Source: Cyanobacterium aponinum PCC 10605
GTDB lineage: Bacteria; Cyanobacteriota; Cyanobacteriia; Cyanobacteriales; Cyanobacteriaceae
Length of the DNA stretch: 64,000 nucleotides
Direction of reading: 5' to 3'
Assembly (NCBI RefSeq): GCF_000317675.1
Contig: NC_019776.1
Coordinates: 1,488,001 to 1,552,000, forward strand
Made by a program: the position numbers and the translations under genes. The notes under the pieces were generated by a model that saw only the letters and a program-made list of their open reading frames with translations, was not told where the DNA came from and did not search any database. Of the stretch, positions 12,664 through 62,215 are shown piece by piece (the stretch's first letter is position 1; every line of letters begins with the position of its first letter).

Positions 12664-12746
12664 AGAGTTAAGAATTAAAAATTAAGGCTCTTCTACAGCA
12701 GGGTTTTTTCAAAGTAAGGGCAAAATTATCTTGCCCTCACCCCCAA

Positions 12747-12778
12747 CCCCTCTCCCACAGTAGAGGGGAGCGTTTTTT
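12747..12778 (+). terminator. Rho-independent terminator-like hairpin after lptF/G
   Basis: CCCCTCT (12747-12753) pairs with AGAGGGG (12762-12768) and TTTTTT follows at 12773-12778. A second weaker hairpin (AGGGCAA / TTGCCCT, 12717-12737) precedes it. The sequence belongs to a widespread cyanobacterial repeat; a related copy without the T-run occurs near 57171-57206. Here it probably ends the permease transcript. Confidence 0.6.
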
Positions 12779-12832
12779 CTTAATAATTGATTAATTAATA
12801 CTTAAAAACTCCTGTATCTGTTACTATTTGTT

Positions 12833-13038
12833 AACCTGAGTTTTGGATAAGCTGAAAGCAGACCAACTCGTAGTCAAAAAACCTTATAGCTTCTTAGAAA
12901 TAACGATAAAATTGCCTTAATCCGAACTGACTTAAACAAGGGGCTTAAGCCCCTTGCTAAAAACCCCTACCACCCGCAACCTGCAACCTGACACCTGACA
13001 CCTAACCTTATCAGATATTCTTAAACCGAACTGAGGTT
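12833..13038. repeat. Complete 206-bp copy (A1) of the AACCTGAG mobile-repeat family
   Basis: The element begins AACCTGAGTTTTGGATAAG and ends with GAACTGAGGTT, so the ends form an imperfect inverted repeat. It is flanked by a perfect 7-bp direct repeat ATTTGTT (12826-12832 and 13039-13045), the mark of an insertion. Inside are a perfect 20-bp palindrome (12937-12956, CAAGGGGCTT / AAGCCCCTTG) and heptamer runs of the type ACCTGCA/ACCTGAC. It has no coding capacity. Close relatives are at 28222, 57252 and 58375. Confidence 0.85.
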
Positions 13039-13045
13039 ATTTGTT

Positions 13046-13414
13046 AGTTTCAAAAATTGACATTTTTGAGAATGAAAAAACCCTGCTTCTATAGTAGTTA
13101 TGACAAATTAATAATAAATGGTATCTCAAACTTTTATTTAAAGAGGGTTTCAGTTAAACAAAAATAAAAAATTTATATAATTTGAGTTTTAAAATCCCCT
13201 CTTTCCTCTTCTCTATTCCCTATTCCCTATTCCCTTTTTTAACTAACAATTTATCACGACGAGAAGTAATAGAGCCAGAATATTTAATCCGAGTTTGATA
13301 TAAAATTCTCGGCGGTGTCAAGTTTATTTCAAGTCGTAATTAACAATTAACTAAAACCTGATACTTGAAACCTCCCTAATTGATTCTTAATCTTCAATTC
13401 TCAATTTTTATAGA
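13046..13414. other. Gene-free stretch before murI
   Basis: AT-rich intergenic DNA with a short block (AATTTATCACGACGAGAAG near 13249) that recurs in altered form near 50029 (AATTTACACGACGAGGAC). Both copies are followed by AGAGCC and pyrimidine-rich sequence, so a further decayed repeat is likely. No open frame or RNA gene could be supported. Confidence 0.4.
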
Positions 13415-20140: not shown

Positions 20141-20378
20141 TAAAGTTAAAAGGGCAAACCCCCCTTTATCCCCCCTCGAGAGGGGGGAAGGCAAAGGTGA
20201 ATAGTTGATAATTAAAAATTAAGAATTAAGAATTAAAAACTCCGAACACTCATTACTTTCTTCTAAAACCTGAAACCTGAAACCTAACACCTTATCTCCC
20301 TCTCCCCCTCTCCCCTCATCACCTCATCCCCAAATATCTCAATACCCCAACACCCTAACACCCTAACACCCTAAATAC
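20141..20378. repeat. Repeat-rich intergenic block
   Basis: It contains CCCCCCTCGAGAGGGGGG-type hairpin sequence near 20161-20188 (related copies at 22.08 and 62.15 kb), then the AATAGTTGATAATTAAAAATT block found in several mobile-repeat copies, and finally heptamer arrays of ACCTGAA, CCTCATC and ACACCCTA types (20264-20375). It ends at the stop codon of the phosphohexomutase gene. No gene is present. Confidence 0.65.
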
Positions 20379-45211: not shown

Positions 45212-45454
45212 TGATAAAAGGATTTCAATGTTAAAGTTCTCGCAAAATTAGATATTCTGGAGCAAAATATTATCTTTGCCTGAAAAAATGTTTCAACTTC
45301 CTAATATTTATCAACAACATTTAAAGAATCAATTTAATTTACCTCAATATTTAGCCCTTTATCTGCTACTCAATCTACTTCAGAATCTCAAAACTATTCG
45401 ACTAGAAGAAATAGCTCGACGTTTTCCTTATCTTATTAAATTAAGAAGCAGAGT
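45179..45454 (+). mobile_element. 5' end of ISX (left arm), truncated by the IS5-type element
   Basis: It starts CTGTGGGGGCGACAAGG, the same terminus as at 46872 in opposite orientation. It contains the first 55 or so codons of a transposase (ATG 45288; MFQLPNIYQQHLKN, then KTIRLEEIARRFPY) and stops at the junction with the IS5-type end. The two arms differ by only a few bases over about 275 bp. Confidence 0.8.
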
Positions 45455-46565
45455 GGCTTTGTTGCATAAATGATGAGTTAAAGCCTTTTTGTGTATAGAA
45501 TAAAATAATAACATCTGTTTTGCTCTCAAGATACGGTCACTTAACTATGAAAGAAAAATATCGTCTCAGAAATTGGTCAGAATATAATCAGGGTTTAAAA
45601 CAAAGAGGTAGTCTGACATTTTGGATTTCTGAGGATACACTGTCTCATTGGTTAGTAACGGAAAAATCTGGTAAAAAAGGTGCTAGTAATTATTTCTCCT
45701 CCCAAGCAATATTAACTTTTCTGATGGTCAAATCACTGTTTAATTTACCAGGGAGACAAACACAGGGATTGATGGAATCTTTATTTTCCCTGATGAATAT
45801 AGATTTATCAATACCAGACCATAGTACTGTTTCTCGTAGAGCCAGAAAACTAGAGATAGTATTACCAGTGGAAAAAACATCTTCATCTGGTCATGTGGTA
45901 ATAGATTCAACGGGAGTAAAAGTTTATGGAGAGGGAGAATGGAAAACCAGACAGCATGGTATGAGTAAAAGAAGAACGTGGCGAAAATTACATTTAGCGG
46001 TAGATGAAAAAACCGGTGAAATTCTGGTGGCGGAGGTAACAACAAATGATTGTCATGATAGTGATGTACTAAAAAGTTGATCAGAAATAATCGAGGGTGA
46101 AATAGAACAAGTGTCCACCGATGGTGCTTACGACAAAAGAAAATGCTATCAAGCAATAGAAGAAAGAGGGGCAAAAGCAATAATACCACCACAAAAAAAT
46201 GCCCAAAAATGGTCAGATATGGATGGGAACAGAAATAAGAATATTGACAGAATCGAAGAAATAGGAAGAAAAGAATGGAAACAAGAAAGTGGCTATCATC
46301 GACGTTCTATCTCAGAGACAACAATGTTTAGGTTAAAAACAATATTTGGAGGTAAAGTAAGTAGTAGAAATTTTGATAACCAGGCAGTAGAACTATTTGT
46401 TCAATGTCTGTTGTTGAATAGAATGAGACAAATAGCTAAAGCAGATAGCTATATAGTTAATAACAGATAAATATAAGGTTTAGGCGATCGCGCAGTGCTT
46501 CAGCTTCGCTGACATCGCACCTGTTGAAACAAAATTCCCTATTTATTAATTCATGCAACAAAGCC
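45455..46565 (+). mobile_element. IS5-type (IS903-like) element, copy 2
   Basis: A 1111-bp element with inverted ends GGCTTTGTTGCATAAAT and, on the other side, GGCTTTGTTGCATGAAT. It contains one transposase gene that is split by an in-frame TGA. There is no 9-bp direct repeat at its flanks (AAGCAGAGT and AATTAAACT), which together with the inverted arms of another IS on each side suggests that recombination, not simple insertion, formed this site. Confidence 0.85.
45547..46470 (+). pseudogene. IS5-type transposase with in-frame TGA
   Basis: The frame from ATG 45547 encodes an IS5-family DDE transposase (RGSLTFWISEDTLSHW, PDHSTVSRRARKLEI, VVIDSTGVKVYGEGEWK, TWRKLHLAVDEKTGEI). At 46078-46080 a TGA interrupts it directly after NDCHDSDVLKS; the same frame continues with SEIIEGEIEQVSTDGAYDKR to a stop at 46470, and the sequence downstream (GYHRRSISETTMFRLKT, LLLNRMRQIAKADSYI) completes the usual C-terminus. 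Copy 1 (24384) has the identical TGA. The protein of about 307 codons would be normal if TGA were read through or repaired. Confidence 0.85.
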
Positions 46566-46872
46566 AATTAAACTTAAAAATCTCTGTAATTTCTTAACTC
46601 TGCTTCGTAATTTAATAGGATAAGGAAAACGTCGAGCTATTTCTTCTAGTCGAATAGTTTTGAGATTCTGAAGTAGATTGAGTAGCAGATAAAGGGCTAA
46701 ATATTGAGGTAAATTAAATTGATTCTTTAAATGTTGTTGATAAATATTAGGAAGTTGAAACATTTTTTCAGGCAAAGATAATATTTTGCTCCAGAATATC
46801 TAATTTTGCGAGAACTTTAACATTGAAATCCTTTTATCATCAATACTTCCAGCTCCCTTGTCGCCCCCACAG
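46566..46872 (-). mobile_element. 5' end of ISX (right arm, inverted)
   Basis: Reading leftward from 46872 the sequence starts CTGTGGGGGCGACAAGG and encodes MFQLPNIYQQHLKNQFN from ATG 46763, continuing 33 bp further than the left arm before the IS5-type end (KLQRFLSLIG). Inverted arms of one IS on both sides of another IS are not produced by a single insertion. Recombination between two ISX copies is likely. Confidence 0.8.
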
Positions 46873-49768: not shown

Positions 49769-50058
49769 CCTGAGTTTGGGATAAATTTTCATCTATGAGT
49801 GATGGAGAAAAGGGCAATTAATGAATAGTGAATAGTTGATAATTAAGAATTAAAAATTAAAAATTAAAAACTCCGAACCCATTCTCACTTCCCCCTCTCA
49901 CCCCTTCTCCTCATCTCCCCATCTCCTCCTCCCCTCATCACCTCATCACCCCTTGTCTCTACTCCTTACTCGTTACTTTCTCCTAAAACCTGAAACCTGC
50001 CACCTGATACCTTTTCCTAACCAATAATTTACACGACGAGGACTAAGAGAGCCGCTTA
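49767..50058. repeat. B-type mobile repeat and heptamer arrays after the SPOR gene
   Basis: It begins AACCTGAGTTTGGGATAAA and continues with TCATCTATGAGTGATGG, GAATAGTTGATAATTAAG and pyrimidine arrays (CTCATCT / CCTCATCAC types, 49887-49950) and ACCTGAA-type heptamers (49985-50015). The far end is unclear; ATTTACACGACGAGGAC near 50029 resembles a block at 13.25 kb. No gene is present. Confidence 0.65.
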
Positions 50059-50124
50059 TTCTGACGCTGTAAGATAAAATGATATATTTAGCACAATAAA
50101 AATAAGATTGACATATAAATATTG

Positions 50125-50859
50125 ATGAATTCAAGAATTGGCACTCTTTATGGTGTCAGCGTTGGTACAGGAGATCCAGAGTTAATAACCATTAAAGCCT
50201 TAAAAGTCATCAAAAATAGTCCTATAATTGCTTTTCCTGCTGGAATTAATCAAAAATTGGGCAAAGCAGAAACTATCATTCAAAATTATTTGCAACCCCA
50301 CCAAAAAAAACTATCTCTCACTTTCCCCTATACATTGTCCCAAGAAATTTTAGAGAGGTCATGGCGGAAAGTGGCATTACAGGTTTGGGAATTTTTAGCT
50401 AAAGGTTTAGATGTGGCTTTTGCTTGTGAAGGGGATATTAGTTTTTATAGCACTTTTACTTATTTAGCTGAATATATCAAAAAAATTGACTCTAATCTCA
50501 GAATAGAAAGAATTGCAGGGGTATCTTCTCCAATGGTTGCCGCTTCTGTATTAGATATTCCTTTAACTGTGCAAGATGAAAAATTAGTGGTTTTACCTGC
50601 TTTTTATTCGGTAGAAGAGTTAGAAAAAGTTTTGGATTGGGCGGAAGTCATTGTTTTAATGAAAGTAGCTTCTGTTTATGAAAAAGTATGGCAAATTTTG
50701 GCACAAAAAGGTTTATTATCCTCTTCTTATATAGTAGAAAAAGCAACTCAACCAGAAGAAAAAGTATATCGTAATCTTACTTTATTGCCCCATTTAAAGT
50801 TAAACTATTTTTCGATTTTGATTATCAAAAATAATCCCCACAACACTCAAGCTATTTAA
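50125..50859 (+). CDS. cobI: Precorrin-2 C20-methyltransferase
   Basis: This 244-residue SAM-dependent tetrapyrrole methylase adds the C-20 methyl group in corrin synthesis on the route to cobalamin. It has the N-terminal motif GTLYGVSVGTGDPELITIKA, a central EGDISFYSTFTYL, and GVSSPMVAASVLDIPL. The start ATG 50125 was chosen over TTG 50122. It stands alone, with no neighbouring cob genes and no cobalamin riboswitch that I can see. Confidence 0.92.
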   Translation: MNSRIGTLYGVSVGTGDPELITIKALKVIKNSPIIAFPAGINQKLGKAETIIQNYLQPHQKKLSLTFPYTLSQEILERSWRKVALQVWEFLAKGLDVAFACEGDISFYSTFTYLAEYIKKIDSNLRIERIAGVSSPMVAASVLDIPLTVQDEKLVVLPAFYSVEELEKVLDWAEVIVLMKVASVYEKVWQILAQKGLLSSSYIVEKATQPEEKVYRNLTLLPHLKLNYFSILIIKNNPHNTQAI

Positions 50860-50895
50860 TAAACGTCTCCAACAATTCTCAAAATAAGGGAACCA

Positions 50896-50939
50896 AGCCC
50901 TAACTACGAGCCTATATTAATATTTTCTACCAGATGTCT
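50896..50939. repeat. 44-bp exact repeat (inverted partner at 22040-22083)
   Basis: Every base of 50896-50939 matches the reverse complement of 22040-22083. Beyond these limits the two sites differ. The gap 50860-51176 otherwise contains nothing recognisable. Confidence 0.8.
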
Positions 50940-51176
50940 AATATACCTCAGTTGTTCAGTAGGAATGTCTGACTTAGACAAATTGCCGGTGGCTGGTTTC
51001 AAGCATGATATTTCTTTAGCGTCAATTATTTAACAAAAAATAACAAGAAGAAAATCAATAAACATAAGTTTTCTGCAAATTATTATGACTTTTCTCTCTT
51101 CTACTCCCCCCAGCACCACCAGACAATTTTATATTGAACTCAGTAATTTAGTTGGAAGAATAAAAACACTCTCTAG

Positions 51177-51998
51177 CTATTCTTTCATCACAGCTTCTGT
51201 TAGGTCAGCTCGATCGAAGTTTGCCTGACTAATATTAGCATGAACTAAATTAGCTTTAGTTAGATTAGAACGAGTTAAATTTGACCATAATAGATTTGCT
51301 TCAGAAAGATTGGCTTCGGAGAAATCCACCATTTTGAGACTACACCAAGTCATCATACTATGATAAAAATTAGCACCATGAAAAATACTGTTAGCAAAAT
51401 TCCCTCCGCTTAAATTAGCATGACTGAAATTAGCATGGGATGCTTTGATACCCACACCATTAACAGAATTCATTTGAGTAAGAGATAAATTGGCATTTTC
51501 TAAATTAGTGTTAATCATAATGGCATTAGTTAAGTTTGCCCCTTGTAGGTTAGCACCCTGTAAATTAGCATCTGTCAAATTAGCTCGACTTAAAAGACTG
51601 TTAATCAAAATTGCATGACTCAAATTGACGTTTTTTAAAATAGCATCATGTAATAATGCACAAATTAACTTACTATGACTAAAGTTACTATGACTCAGAT
51701 TTGCATTTCTTAAACTAGCGTCTGTGAGGTCACTATTTTGCAAATCTCCTTTAATTATTTGGGATTGAATCAAGTTAACGGCACTCAAATCTCCTTGGAT
51801 AACGACATTTTCTAAATTTGCTTCTTTTAGGTTTGCTTGGGTGAGAAAACATCCTTCAAAACAAGCACCACTCAAATTAGCTTCTTTTAAGTTAATTCTG
51901 TGAAGCACTGTATTTGTTAATTTTTGATTTTGAAGATCAACTTTTTGAAAGTTTGTTTCCCCTCGGTTATATCTTTCTATCAATTCTTGGGCATCCAT
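51177..51998 (-). CDS. Pentapeptide-repeat protein
   Basis: This 273-residue protein is made of about 45 tandem A(N/D)LXX pentapeptides from about residue 25 to the end (for example ANLKEANLENV and ANLTDANLQGANLQGANL). These fold as a right-handed quadrilateral beta-helix. The function of such proteins in cyanobacteria is unclear. The first 20 residues (MDAQELIERYNRGETNFQKV) are the usual lead-in. It is 17 bp downstream of the LpxB-related gene on the same strand, so co-transcription is likely. Confidence 0.9.
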   Translation of the reverse strand: MDAQELIERYNRGETNFQKVDLQNQKLTNTVLHRINLKEANLSGACFEGCFLTQANLKEANLENVVIQGDLSAVNLIQSQIIKGDLQNSDLTDASLRNANLSHSNFSHSKLICALLHDAILKNVNLSHAILINSLLSRANLTDANLQGANLQGANLTNAIMINTNLENANLSLTQMNSVNGVGIKASHANFSHANLSGGNFANSIFHGANFYHSMMTWCSLKMVDFSEANLSEANLLWSNLTRSNLTKANLVHANISQANFDRADLTEAVMKE

Positions 51999-52015
51999 CT
52001 TAAAATTTACCTTTG

Positions 52016-53311
52016 CTATACTTCACTTCTTTGGGTTAGTTTGCTTAATAATTCACGGGCGATTTTTTTTGCACCCCCTGCACTTCCTAATCTTTTTTTA
52101 CCATTAACTGAGATTGATTGCCATAAATCTGGGTTAGATAGTAATTCTTGCACTTTATCTTTTACTTGTTGAGGATTTTCCACCAGTTGTAAGGATATTC
52201 CTAATAAGCGGCTTTGATTCTTCGCAAATTTTGGGTTATACTGCGCCCCAGTACCAGCAAATGCGATCGCAGGTTTTCCTAAGCCGACAAACTGTTCTGT
52301 TGCTGTACCTGCCATCGCTATTGATATATCACAATATTGTAAACTTTGAGCATAACTATTTTGACTCAAGATTAATTGAGCTTTATTCTTAGTAAGAATC
52401 ATTTTATCAGGATCTTCAATGGGTATGTTAACTGATTTTTTTTGAATCGGTTTCCATTGAAATTTTTGGGCAATTTCGGCAAAGACATTTAAGTTTAGAG
52501 AAGATGCGATCGCACCCACAAATCTTAAATCTAAATCTTGAATTTCTAATAAACTATCCACAGCAGAAAGGATTAATTGCCAGTTATCGAGGGCTTCTGG
52601 TAATCTTGAACCGGGTAACAATAATACTTTTAAGGTATATTCATCATCTGGATTTTGGACAGGAGAAAAAGATATGTCCACATCATCCATCATCGGGTTG
52701 CCATAATCATAAGCTCGAATACCGTAATTTTGCAAAGACTCAACCGTTAAACTATCTCTGGGAAAAATACCTAAACAAGATTTACTGCTCATTAACCAAC
52801 GCTCCCAAGGATAATAAATCGAACCCAAAAAGCGATCAACAATACTAACATCTTCTAACCACCCCTCTTCATTTCTTAAATAATATTCAGATTTTGCCGT
52901 GCCGACAAAAAAATAATTAACACCACTTAAGTTTGCCCAAAGTAAAGGTAAAATATCCCCCACTGCCAGAATTAAACCCCCTTCCCTGCTCCACTGTTTA
53001 ACTTGTTGATATTGATGAAGGGTTAAACCCACTAAGCCACTTTTAATATCTTTCCATAACTGGCGACCATCCATATAAATAAACCCCCCCGAGGGCATTT
53101 TTTGAACTTTTCCTAATAGGGGTATATCTATTTTTTGATAAGCAAAACCTTCCCCTACCATGGGCAAAGCAGTAATATTTATTGGGCAATACTCTTGATT
53201 AGAATCAGAGGAGAAATTAATTTTTTGTAGTTTCCATAATTCTTGAATAATTTTGACTGCAATTACATCCTCTCCATGACCATTACTGATTACTAACAAA
53301 CGGCGATTCAT
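52016..53311 (-). CDS. Lipid-A-disaccharide synthase-related glycosyltransferase (TIGR03492 type)
   Basis: This protein of 431 residues from ATG 53311 resembles the cyanobacterial and plant LpxB-related family (MNRRLLVISNGHGEDVIAVK, LPLLWANLSGVNYFFVGTAK, GTATEQFVGLGKPAIAFAGT). The family name implies a GT-B glycosyltransferase; the substrate is unproven. The open frame extends a further 53 codons upstream to 53470, but that part lies in a mobile repeat inserted at 53361-53571, so the true start is the ATG at 53311. It may form an operon with the pentapeptide gene. Confidence 0.85.
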   Translation of the reverse strand: MNRRLLVISNGHGEDVIAVKIIQELWKLQKINFSSDSNQEYCPINITALPMVGEGFAYQKIDIPLLGKVQKMPSGGFIYMDGRQLWKDIKSGLVGLTLHQYQQVKQWSREGGLILAVGDILPLLWANLSGVNYFFVGTAKSEYYLRNEEGWLEDVSIVDRFLGSIYYPWERWLMSSKSCLGIFPRDSLTVESLQNYGIRAYDYGNPMMDDVDISFSPVQNPDDEYTLKVLLLPGSRLPEALDNWQLILSAVDSLLEIQDLDLRFVGAIASSLNLNVFAEIAQKFQWKPIQKKSVNIPIEDPDKMILTKNKAQLILSQNSYAQSLQYCDISIAMAGTATEQFVGLGKPAIAFAGTGAQYNPKFAKNQSRLLGISLQLVENPQQVKDKVQELLSNPDLWQSISVNGKKRLGSAGGAKKIARELLSKLTQRSEV

Positions 53312-53360
53312 TGTGATTATACCTGAGTCCGCTATAAAATTTTCGTTGATATAAATAAGG

Positions 53361-53571
53361 CAGGGCTGTTTCATTTTCGAGAAAAAAAAAGAGCGGGAGA
53401 TAAGGGGAGAGGGAGATGGGGGGATTTTTGACTTGCAGATTTTAAGTAAGAATAAAAAATCTTGAAACAATCAATTAATCATAATAAATTATCAAAACTC
53501 ATTACTCATTACTCATTACTCGTTACTTATTACTCCCTCTTAAACAAAGATTTTAGTATGAAACAGCCCTG
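53361..53571. repeat. 211-bp miniature inverted-repeat element with 11-bp target duplication
   Basis: The ends CAGGGCTGTTTCAT (53361-53374) and ATGAAACAGCCCTG (53558-53571) are perfect 14-bp inverted repeats. TATAAATAAGG flanks the element on both sides (53350-53360 and 53572-53582), an 11-bp direct repeat. The interior carries CTCATTA-type heptamers (53499-53535) and no gene. It is unrelated in sequence to the AACCTGAG family. An IS4-type transposase could move it, judging from the long target duplication, but that is inference. Confidence 0.9.
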
Positions 53572-53612
53572 TATAAATAAGGGGTAAACCCCCTCATCCC
53601 CAAAAAAAGTTA

Positions 53613-54437
53613 TCATCTAATTTGCCAATAGTTTTTGTCTGCTATAAATTCATAGGAACGATAAAAATTTTCTGCGGGGTTGATTTTGATTCCTTCATTA
53701 CTAATATAAGCAATTTCTGGGATATAGTTATCAGGAAGATTATCGGGGGCGCGAGCAACTAAATCCGCAATACGTAATTGAGTGGGTAACATTTTCAATG
53801 CCATAATTAATGCCTGTTTATTACCATTAGCACCAGCATGGGCAATTCCTCTTAGGTTACCCCAGATTAAGACATCTCCCCCCGCAATAATTGTTGCTCC
53901 GGGGTTAACATCCCCTGCAATAATAATCGTGCTAGGATGACAAATTTCTACTCCTGAGCGAATGGTTGTTTTTAAGTATAAAGGTTCTGTGAGAGCTTGA
54001 TTTTCTTCTTTTTTTTCTTTTTTAGTGTCGCTAAAGGTGACTAAAGATGATTCTTGCTTCACAGAATAACCGGCACTGGCTACCGCTACAGCCGTTTGAC
54101 GACGACGGGTAATTATAATGTCTAAGGTTAAGCCGATGTTTTCGAGTATTCCTTCTAATTCACTTAATTGTCTTATATCTAAGAGGCGATCGCCACTTTT
54201 AATGACCGTTTTTGTACCTAATTGCCAAGATTTGTCTATTTTTTGCAATCTAATTTTAAAATCGTCAATAATTCTGCCCCACTGATTAGCTTCACTTTTA
54301 TTAACTGGGGGAAGATTAACTTCTATTATTTCCCCTTTTTTGATCAAGTTAATTTGCTCTTTGCTACTCAATAATTTTAATGGGGGAGGTGTCGGGGATT
54401 CTGTGAGAGAATCCTGATTTTCTGTTTCAATAGACAT
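53613..54437 (-). CDS. minC: Septum site-determining protein MinC
   Basis: MinC inhibits FtsZ assembly away from mid-cell. This 274-residue protein has an N-terminal domain (about 30-130, INLIKKGEIIEVNLPPVNKS, then IILTRRRQ-like segment) and a C-terminal beta-helix domain (about 160-260: VEICHPSTIIIAGDVNPGAT, AGGDVLIWGNLRGIAHAGAN). It is transcribed without minD or minE beside it; in many cyanobacteria these follow directly. The upstream neighbour purM is 59 bp away. Confidence 0.9.
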   Translation of the reverse strand: MSIETENQDSLTESPTPPPLKLLSSKEQINLIKKGEIIEVNLPPVNKSEANQWGRIIDDFKIRLQKIDKSWQLGTKTVIKSGDRLLDIRQLSELEGILENIGLTLDIIITRRRQTAVAVASAGYSVKQESSLVTFSDTKKEKKEENQALTEPLYLKTTIRSGVEICHPSTIIIAGDVNPGATIIAGGDVLIWGNLRGIAHAGANGNKQALIMALKMLPTQLRIADLVARAPDNLPDNYIPEIAYISNEGIKINPAENFYRSYEFIADKNYWQIR

Positions 54438-54496
54438 TTTCTTCTTGATAATGAGTAATGAATAGAGGGTTGGTAAATATAAATAGGTACTAATGG

Positions 54497-55519
54497 TCAG
54501 TTAAATATGATTGTTTGTTTCCCTTCAATTACTTTACCAATTAAAAAAGTATCAATACCACTACTTTGAAAATGTTGAATTGTTTTATCAGCTTCTTGGG
54601 CTTCCACAATCACCACGAAGCCAACTCCCATATTGAAAGTATTAAGCATATCTTCTAAGGACACATTCCCTTTTTTCTTTAACCATTGGAATATAGGGGG
54701 AATTGTCCAACTATCTAATTTTACTTCTATGGATTTATCTGTTGGCAAACAACGAGGTAAGTTTTCGGGGATGCCTCCTCCTGTAATGTGTGCCATTCCT
54801 TTTATGGGAATCCCCGTTTTTAATGCTGACAACACAGGTTTTACATATAATTTGGTGGGAGTTAAACAAATTTCTCCTAGGGTTTTTTCTCCTAATTCTT
54901 CACATTGATAATCCCAACTTAACCCCTCAGATTCAATTATTTTACGTACCAGAGAAAAACCATTACTGTGAATACCACTACTAGAAAGTGCGATCGCAAC
55001 ATTTCCTGCTTGAATAGCACTACCATCAATAATTCTACTTTTTTCCACAATACCAACACAAAAACCAGCTATATCATACTCACCCTGTTGATAAAATCCT
55101 GGCATTTCTGCTGTTTCACCCCCCAATAACGCACAACCGCTCTCTTTACAGCCAATAACAATGCCATTGATAACTTCTGCTAATTGATTACCATTTAATT
55201 TACCCGTAGCTAAATAATCCAGAAAGAATAAAGGTTCAGCCCCAGAAGTAAGAATGTCATTAACACACATCGCCACCAAATCAATTCCCACAGTATCATG
55301 ACGATTCAATTGATGGGCAATTTTTAATTTTGTACCAACACCATCTGTACCTGAAATTAAGACAGGTTGTTGATAACCGGCAGGGATTTCAAAGCAACCA
55401 CCAAACCCCCCTAAACCGCCTAAAACTTCTCTACGATAGGTACTAGCTACATTTTCCGATATTTTTTTGACAAATTCTCTTCCCGCTTCTACGTCAACTC
55501 CTGCCTGTTTATAATCCAT
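54497..55519 (-). CDS. purM: Phosphoribosylformylglycinamidine cyclo-ligase
   Basis: PurM closes the imidazole ring in purine synthesis (FGAM + ATP to AIR). The 340-residue protein has the ATP-binding N-terminal pattern ([31 protein letters not shown]), the signature [11 protein letters not shown] near residue 128, and [10 protein letters not shown]. All expected motifs are present at normal length. It is likely the first gene of a unit with minC. Confidence 0.96.
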
Positions 55520-56127
55520 TGTGCAATCTCCTTTAGATAAATTTTTTCAATAGATGAAATTTTACTCTTTAAATTGATCAAATTTTCTTATCGTATCGAC
55601 ACGGGAATTATTGATCATTTTTCGACCAAATTATCATACCATTATTGTCTAATTTTGGTCAAAATTTATCCTTTAAAAGAGTTTGTTTTATGAGATAATT
55701 TCACTTTAATAATCTTTTTTTCCTTTATAAATCAATTCATCAGCCTCTTCTATTTTTTTAAACATTCATGTAGCCACAAGAAACATAAATCCTTAAGTTA
55801 TTTTCTTACTCAAAATACTACTATTTTTACAGATCCTATTTTTTTTACTTGTATTTAGCCGTTTAATTGATTAGTTATTTAAAACATTGAGAGCTTTTTT
55901 AAAATTAAATAAACTAACTATGGTACATATTAAAATTTATTTTATCTACCTATATAATTATATTAAATATTACAATATACTTTAAATAAGAAATAATTAA
56001 CCATAAGTAAAAATCCTTATGTTAACTTAATTTAAGTTCACTCACATAAATAAAGTGTCATTCACAAGGAGCAAACTAACAGAAAAGCTCAATATTAAAG
56101 GCTTTCATTGTTCACTAAAGAAACATT
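55520..56127. other. 608-bp gap upstream of rlpA
   Basis: Very AT-rich DNA between the divergent purM and rlpA genes. A loose inverted pair TTGATCAAATT / TTATTGATCA occurs near 55575-55620. There is no repeat-family copy, open frame, tRNA or recognisable riboswitch. A long 5' leader for rlpA is possible. Confidence 0.35.
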
Positions 56128-62135: not shown

Positions 62136-62215
62136 TATCTAGGACAAGGGGCAAACCCCCCTTTATCCCCCCTCTCGAGGGGGGAGGGCAAAAGTGTTTA
62201 ATTAACCTCCCCCTC
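62136..62215. repeat. C-run/G-run hairpin between the two siderophore genes
   Basis: CCCCCCTTTATCCCCCC followed by TCTCGAGGGGGGAGGGC forms a hairpin and is followed by AAAAGTGTTTAATTAACCTC, the same order as at 22.08-22.13 kb. It lies in the 193-bp gap between dat and the decarboxylase gene. Confidence 0.6.

Follow-up and report, generated by a model that had tools for sequence, protein, structure and literature searches.

The locus and its setting

The window, by which we mean the whole 64,000-nucleotide stretch of Cyanobacterium aponinum PCC 10605 DNA that was analysed, carries a miniature transposable element (MITE) in the spacer between minC and a lipid-A-disaccharide synthase-related gene. 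The features of the locus are as follows:

53361..53571, + strand: MITE, long form, 211 bp, without transposase (from aligned ends and copies, with at least 40 further matches in the genome)
53361..53374, + strand: left terminal inverted repeat CAGGGCTGTTTCAT, 14 bp, the same as both ends of ten ISAs1-family insertion sequence (IS) copies
53558..53571, − strand: right terminal inverted repeat, complementary to 53361-53374 at 14/14 positions
53350..53360, no strand: target-site duplication, left copy TATAAATAAGG, exact 11-bp direct repeat
53572..53582, no strand: target-site duplication, right copy TATAAATAAGG, exact 11-bp direct repeat
53361..53430, + strand: left module in common with the 164-bp short form (from alignments; boundary approximate)
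53497..53535, + strand: heptamer array of three CATTACT, one CGTTACT and one TATTACT with partial units (from between-copy length steps of 7 bp)
52016..53311, − strand: downstream gene, lipid-A-disaccharide synthase-related (TIGR03492, 1.4e-136)
53613..54437, − strand: upstream gene minC (PF03775, 2.2e-32)

A preliminary description of this DNA had proposed an element of 211 bp whose inverted ends are perfect over 14 bp and which is flanked by a target duplication of 11 bp, and all of this is exact to the base. The LpxB-related identity that it gave to the downstream gene agrees with the TIGR03492 match, in a protein with no Pfam match at E ≤ 0.001. The ATG of this gene at 53311 is 49 bp away from the MITE, and the open frame 52016-53470 on the minus strand encodes 484 aa, of which residue 54 is the start of MNRR... 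(ATG 53311); the 53 codons said to be added to the frame are thereby confirmed. Apart from this extension, no frame of ≥50 aa enters the 211-bp MITE. The whole 64-kb window was scanned for pairs of inverted repeats (≥10 bp) that are spaced 60-500 bp and bordered immediately on the outside by a direct repeat of ≥8 bp. The MITE at 53361-53571 was the sole element found, and the same scan of 100 mononucleotide shuffles of the window returned 0 elements.

Copies and relatives

Further copies with these ends, for which the preliminary description had proposed a search, do exist in this genome. In the 4,114,099-bp chromosome and one more contig, at least 41 matches to the MITE were found at E ≤ 0.001, the window copy included, which is a lower bound with 40 of 354 first-look candidates scored. 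Among the loci read, both ends are present in at least 26 copies, eight of them long (191-212 bp) and 18 short (146-176 bp); in alignment the two forms have the left part in common and differ in the right half. Duplications are exact in 12 of the 26 (eight of 11 bp, two of 12 bp and two of 10 bp), inexact in a further five with 1 mismatch in 11 and two with 2 mismatches, and not recognisable in seven. One further long copy with both ends (L013) is extended to 956 bp by a group II intron of 751 nt that lies within the heptamer array (RF00029, 56.6 bits, gathering 40; L013 750-1500, G000:C1 about 1999822-2000572) with no frame over 65 aa, and this intron-bearing copy has no recognisable duplication. 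A 6S RNA gene (L014 1833-2017) lies ~160 bp from a short-form copy.

Relatives of 205 bp in two other genomes (G010 and G001) align with the window MITE over everything rightward of about position 59, the heptamer array included, and have a different left module, the stretch 53361-53430 being replaced by different sequence in the alignment; a more distant relative of 203 bp is present in G009. Since the 205-bp relatives match only the right part, the long form in the window seems to be a composite, in which an old right part is combined with the left module that the short form also has. The exact 21-bp left-end pattern occurs in three stretches of the GTDB genome set, from which the source genome of the window and its closest relatives may be missing. 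All three are from Westiellopsis prolifica, each with a 131-bp element that has the same ends; an 11-bp duplication flanks two of these, and the third is interrupted by N. With regard to phage carriage, the 21-bp left end had 0 matches in viral contigs.

The heptamer array

Array length among the eight long copies is 40, 33 or 19 bp (5.7, 4.7 or 2.7 units). Because it is present in the ~200-bp relatives of two other genera, the array is, judging from these comparisons, an old, built-in segment that changes in 7-bp steps. The preliminary description had suggested that heptamers may settle in, or be made within, such elements; the length steps and the built-in nature of the array stand, while its likeness to the arrays of other repeats, which may come from recombination between them, was not strengthened by a wider sample. 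Arrays without MITE ends also occur in this genome (L038, L039 and L041), including within the window, and the variant order CA CA CA CG TA is common to the window MITE and two of the free arrays (L038 and L039). In another genome (G008), a free array at L171 118-418 has 43 units, most of them CCTTACT or CATTACT.

Broken copies bear on what the array does. A first set consisted of six long-form half-copies, five from this genome and one from G001, with the left pieces that carry the short-form module (L028, L034, L035 and L042) left out. In five of the six the break falls at the array (post hoc, naive P 0.0006-0.0012). Two (L007 and L010) follow the MITE up to the array and then continue as TTTCTCCAACACCTGCAACCTG, which is the flank of free array L038; in two others (L011 and L169) the array marks the change to a different flank; L037 has the reciprocal order, with a free-array-like left flank followed by the MITE right end; and L006 breaks ~12 bp beyond the array. 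The junctions in L007, L010 and L037 are real, and they are of reciprocal kinds. A second set, examined to check the first, comprised 13 broken relatives in G001, G008 and G010, obtained from 16 stretches after a free array (L214), a stretch cut by a contig end (L215) and a complete copy (L216) were left out. The break falls at the array in only four of the 13 (L205, L210, L211 and L212), a proportion compatible with chance (P 0.14-0.22). In three G001 stretches (L201, L202 and L204) similarity is lost near position 118-120, before the array, and L207 has an insert within its array. Both sets together give 9/19 breaks at the array (P 0.001-0.005), a figure that leans on the set that prompted the idea.

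Two readings of these breaks were weighed. The broken copies at the array edge could be ordinary truncations, with similar arrays arising by separate slippage and no special exchange, and we give this a somewhat less than even chance. It is favoured by the second set, by the G001 copies that break near position 118-120 instead, and by the existence of arrays without MITE ends, which are common in other genera; the first set, the run of L007 and L010 into the flank of L038 with L037 as the reciprocal, and the shared variant order in the window MITE, L038 and L039 speak against it. Alternatively, the array might serve as a recombination joint, at which exchange with free arrays would swap MITE halves, make chimaeras and couple heptamer spread to ISAs1-type transposition. 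This reading was given less weight because of the 4/13 in the second set and we regard it as rather unlikely; a role of the array as a general exchange hot spot is suggestive only. It nevertheless offers a testable, so far suggestive, reason why heptamer and mobile repeats are joined in these genomes.

Target sites and unoccupied sites

A CCCTTTATCCC-like core is found at the insertion point in 14 of the 26 two-ended copies. The CCCTTTATCCC core is part of a palindromic host repeat; its pattern, CCCCTTTATCCYCCCTCNNGAGGGG, has 164 matches in the genome at ≤3 mismatches, occupied copies included, against 0 for the reversed control of the pattern. This host repeat is a favoured landing site of the MITE, and the landing site thus lies inside a repeat that matches at 164 places. 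The repeat, as CCCCTTTATCCCCCCTCGAGAGGGG, also occurs in the window at 20161-20185 and 62158-62182.

The flanks of six copies (L002, L004, L016, L017, L021 and L029) were joined and compared with ten stretches, six from the same genome and four from G001. Each of the six joined flanks aligns over its junction with at least one unoccupied host repeat; of the ten stretches, seven gave such matches, with no junction-spanning alignment for the G001 stretches L190-L192. The junction alignments are ungapped for L017, L021 and L029 and need 1-5 gap openings for L002, L004 and L016. An empty site in relatives, as proposed in the preliminary description, was thus found in part. The paralogous sites are unoccupied in all six cases, and the MITE is absent from four sites in G001, the only congeneric genome searched besides that of the window, all in diverged spacers, so that no letter-clean orthologous empty site was obtained there. 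The G001 counterpart of the window site lacks the MITE and has ~100 unrelated bases instead; the L012 and L019 sites also lack it in diverged spacers; and the L021 site measures 87 bp by match positions where 82 would be expected of an empty site. For L002, L014 and L016, no G001 match covers their own flanks on both sides.

Probable partner insertion sequences

A DDE_Tnp_1 search of six genomes led to a 1392-bp IS (L084, G056) with exact MITE ends and a broken ISAs1 transposase. A search of 120 genomes with the ISAs1 model found matches (E ≤ 0.001) in 78, of which 64 exceeded the cut-off, and 30 loci were read. One of the 30 (L139) has 14/14 ends on both sides and another (L140) is off by one base; many other loci of the 30 end in CAGGG...ACGCAT. 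Of 13 further regions from lower among the matches, eight hold nine IS with exact ends, L139's place among them. A 777-bp relic in G001 (L154) also has exact ends, with 18 bp of end common to the MITE, L152, L155 and L156 are near misses to exact-ended IS, and L153 has no such pair of ends.

Full-length IS with the same 14-bp ends, for which the preliminary description had proposed a search, were thus found in ten copies, all with 14/14 ends, in five genomes of the same order (three in G109, two each in G053, G060 and G026, and one in G056). Exact 10-12-bp duplications flank six of the ten, and none was recognised in the other four. The IS4-type transposase proposed with them was not borne out: L139 (1231 bp) has an open 363-aa transposase of the ISAs1 family (NF033564 2.2e-79, PF13808 + PF01609), and its match to the IS4 model is weak (6.1e-5) and below the cut-off. 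ISAs1 duplications are usually 8-10 bp. One subgroup of this family resembles the MITE in its identical 14-bp ends, its C/G-rich targets and, where duplications were found, their length of 10-12 bp. Unlike these IS, the MITE carries no gene, and in comparisons with seven IS it shares only the terminal 13-23 bp, plus short matches at chance level, so that its interior finds no counterpart in them. The candidate origin of the MITE as an internally deleted IS was rejected on this ground, and for the same reason descent from a particular IS is not demonstrated. Nine of the ten end-sharing IS were found via the ISAs1 model and the tenth via the DDE_Tnp_1 search, so that the case against other IS families with these ends is less complete.

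Probable mobilisation of the MITE

That this is a miniature transposable element, as had been proposed, stands on its many copies with their ends and duplications, on the unoccupied paralogous targets and on the full-length IS with identical ends in other genomes. The element at 53361-53571 belongs to an ISAs1-type MITE family, the general kind of which is already known. We consider it very probable that the MITE, with the heptamer array as an old internal part, is a non-autonomous element that was once moved in trans by a transposase of the ISAs1 family. Such an enzyme would recognise the 14-bp ends CAGGGCTGTTTCAT, cut the target with an 11-bp stagger and favour C/G-rich targets such as the CCCTTTATCCC of the host palindromic repeat. 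Within this reading, we infer both the ISAs1 group as the mover and the 11-bp stagger. The search of the genome itself yielded no intact ISAs1 transposase, and the three weak ISAs1 matches in it are all below the cut-off; as only such scraps were found, the MITE looks stranded in this genome at present, unless a transposase arrives from elsewhere.

Mobilisation by an IS4-family transposase would also account for a duplication of 11 bp, since 10-12-bp duplications are typical of IS4-family elements, and the genome has six DDE_Tnp_1 matches. None of these six loci, however, has the MITE ends at ≤3 mismatches, and at 4 mismatches two are without ends and four have scattered ones; moreover, the end-sharing IS match the ISAs1 model, though nine of the ten were sought with it. 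With no fitting ends among the six loci, an IS4-type partner is largely refuted and we judge it highly improbable. Equally improbable is a non-mobile structural or regulatory repeat (REP/BIME-like), made by the host and retained for its function, for which the position in the spacer between minC and the TIGR03492 gene and a fold better than 200 shuffles on both strands (z -5.6 and -4.0) could be cited, but strong folding is expected of perfect MITE ends, insertion is evident from the direct repeats and the unoccupied paralogous sites, and no terminator and 4 promoter-like matches (2.2, sd 1.5, in shuffles) were found. A regulatory role was rejected on the lack of a terminator and the near-background promoter matches. 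There was no Rfam match at gathering within 50000-56000.

Comparison with known systems

Cyanobacterial heptanucleotide repeats (STRR) consist of 7-bp tandem units; unlike these, the array described here is in addition a constant component of a mobile element. The 14-mer end sequence had no occurrence, and no published family was recognised as this MITE, in a literature search with most subscription journals outside its scope.

The MITEs of Anabaena sp. 90 are likewise short, multicopy and mostly in spacers, and their host also has an ISAs1 member, ISAsp2; in the available part of that report they are called type II, with no evident similarity to the IS inverted repeats of that genome (PMC3542288). 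The present MITE differs from them in that a partner IS was found, in other genomes, and a cyanobacterial MITE family thereby gains a partner transposon group through shared ends. In Microcystis aeruginosa PCC 7806, the partner IS of a 187-nt MITE was similarly deduced from common ends and duplications of the same length, although, in the accessible text, the partner there is of the ISL3 family, with 8-nt direct repeats and 9-nt imperfect ends (PMC11448079). The BrickBuilt MITE of Porphyromonas gingivalis is alike in containing a tandem-repeat array; its units are 23 nt long, and recombination between sites is left open by its authors in the portion of the article available (PMC4596501).

Other elements in the window

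A second element type of ~387 bp, with related ends CAGGGTTTTTTCA / ATGAAAAAACCCTG, lies at 12699-13085 of the window. Its 14-mer CAGGGTTTTTTCAT has 20 exact matches in the genome, and copies of this type are found beside or in the present MITE at three loci (L022, L026 and L034). A DDE transposase with one internal stop is located at about 45309-46742 of the window (L043 about 924-2357), and the inverted ends on either side of it contain four perfect stretches of 16 bp with a common axis within 59 bp, possibly representing another element family.
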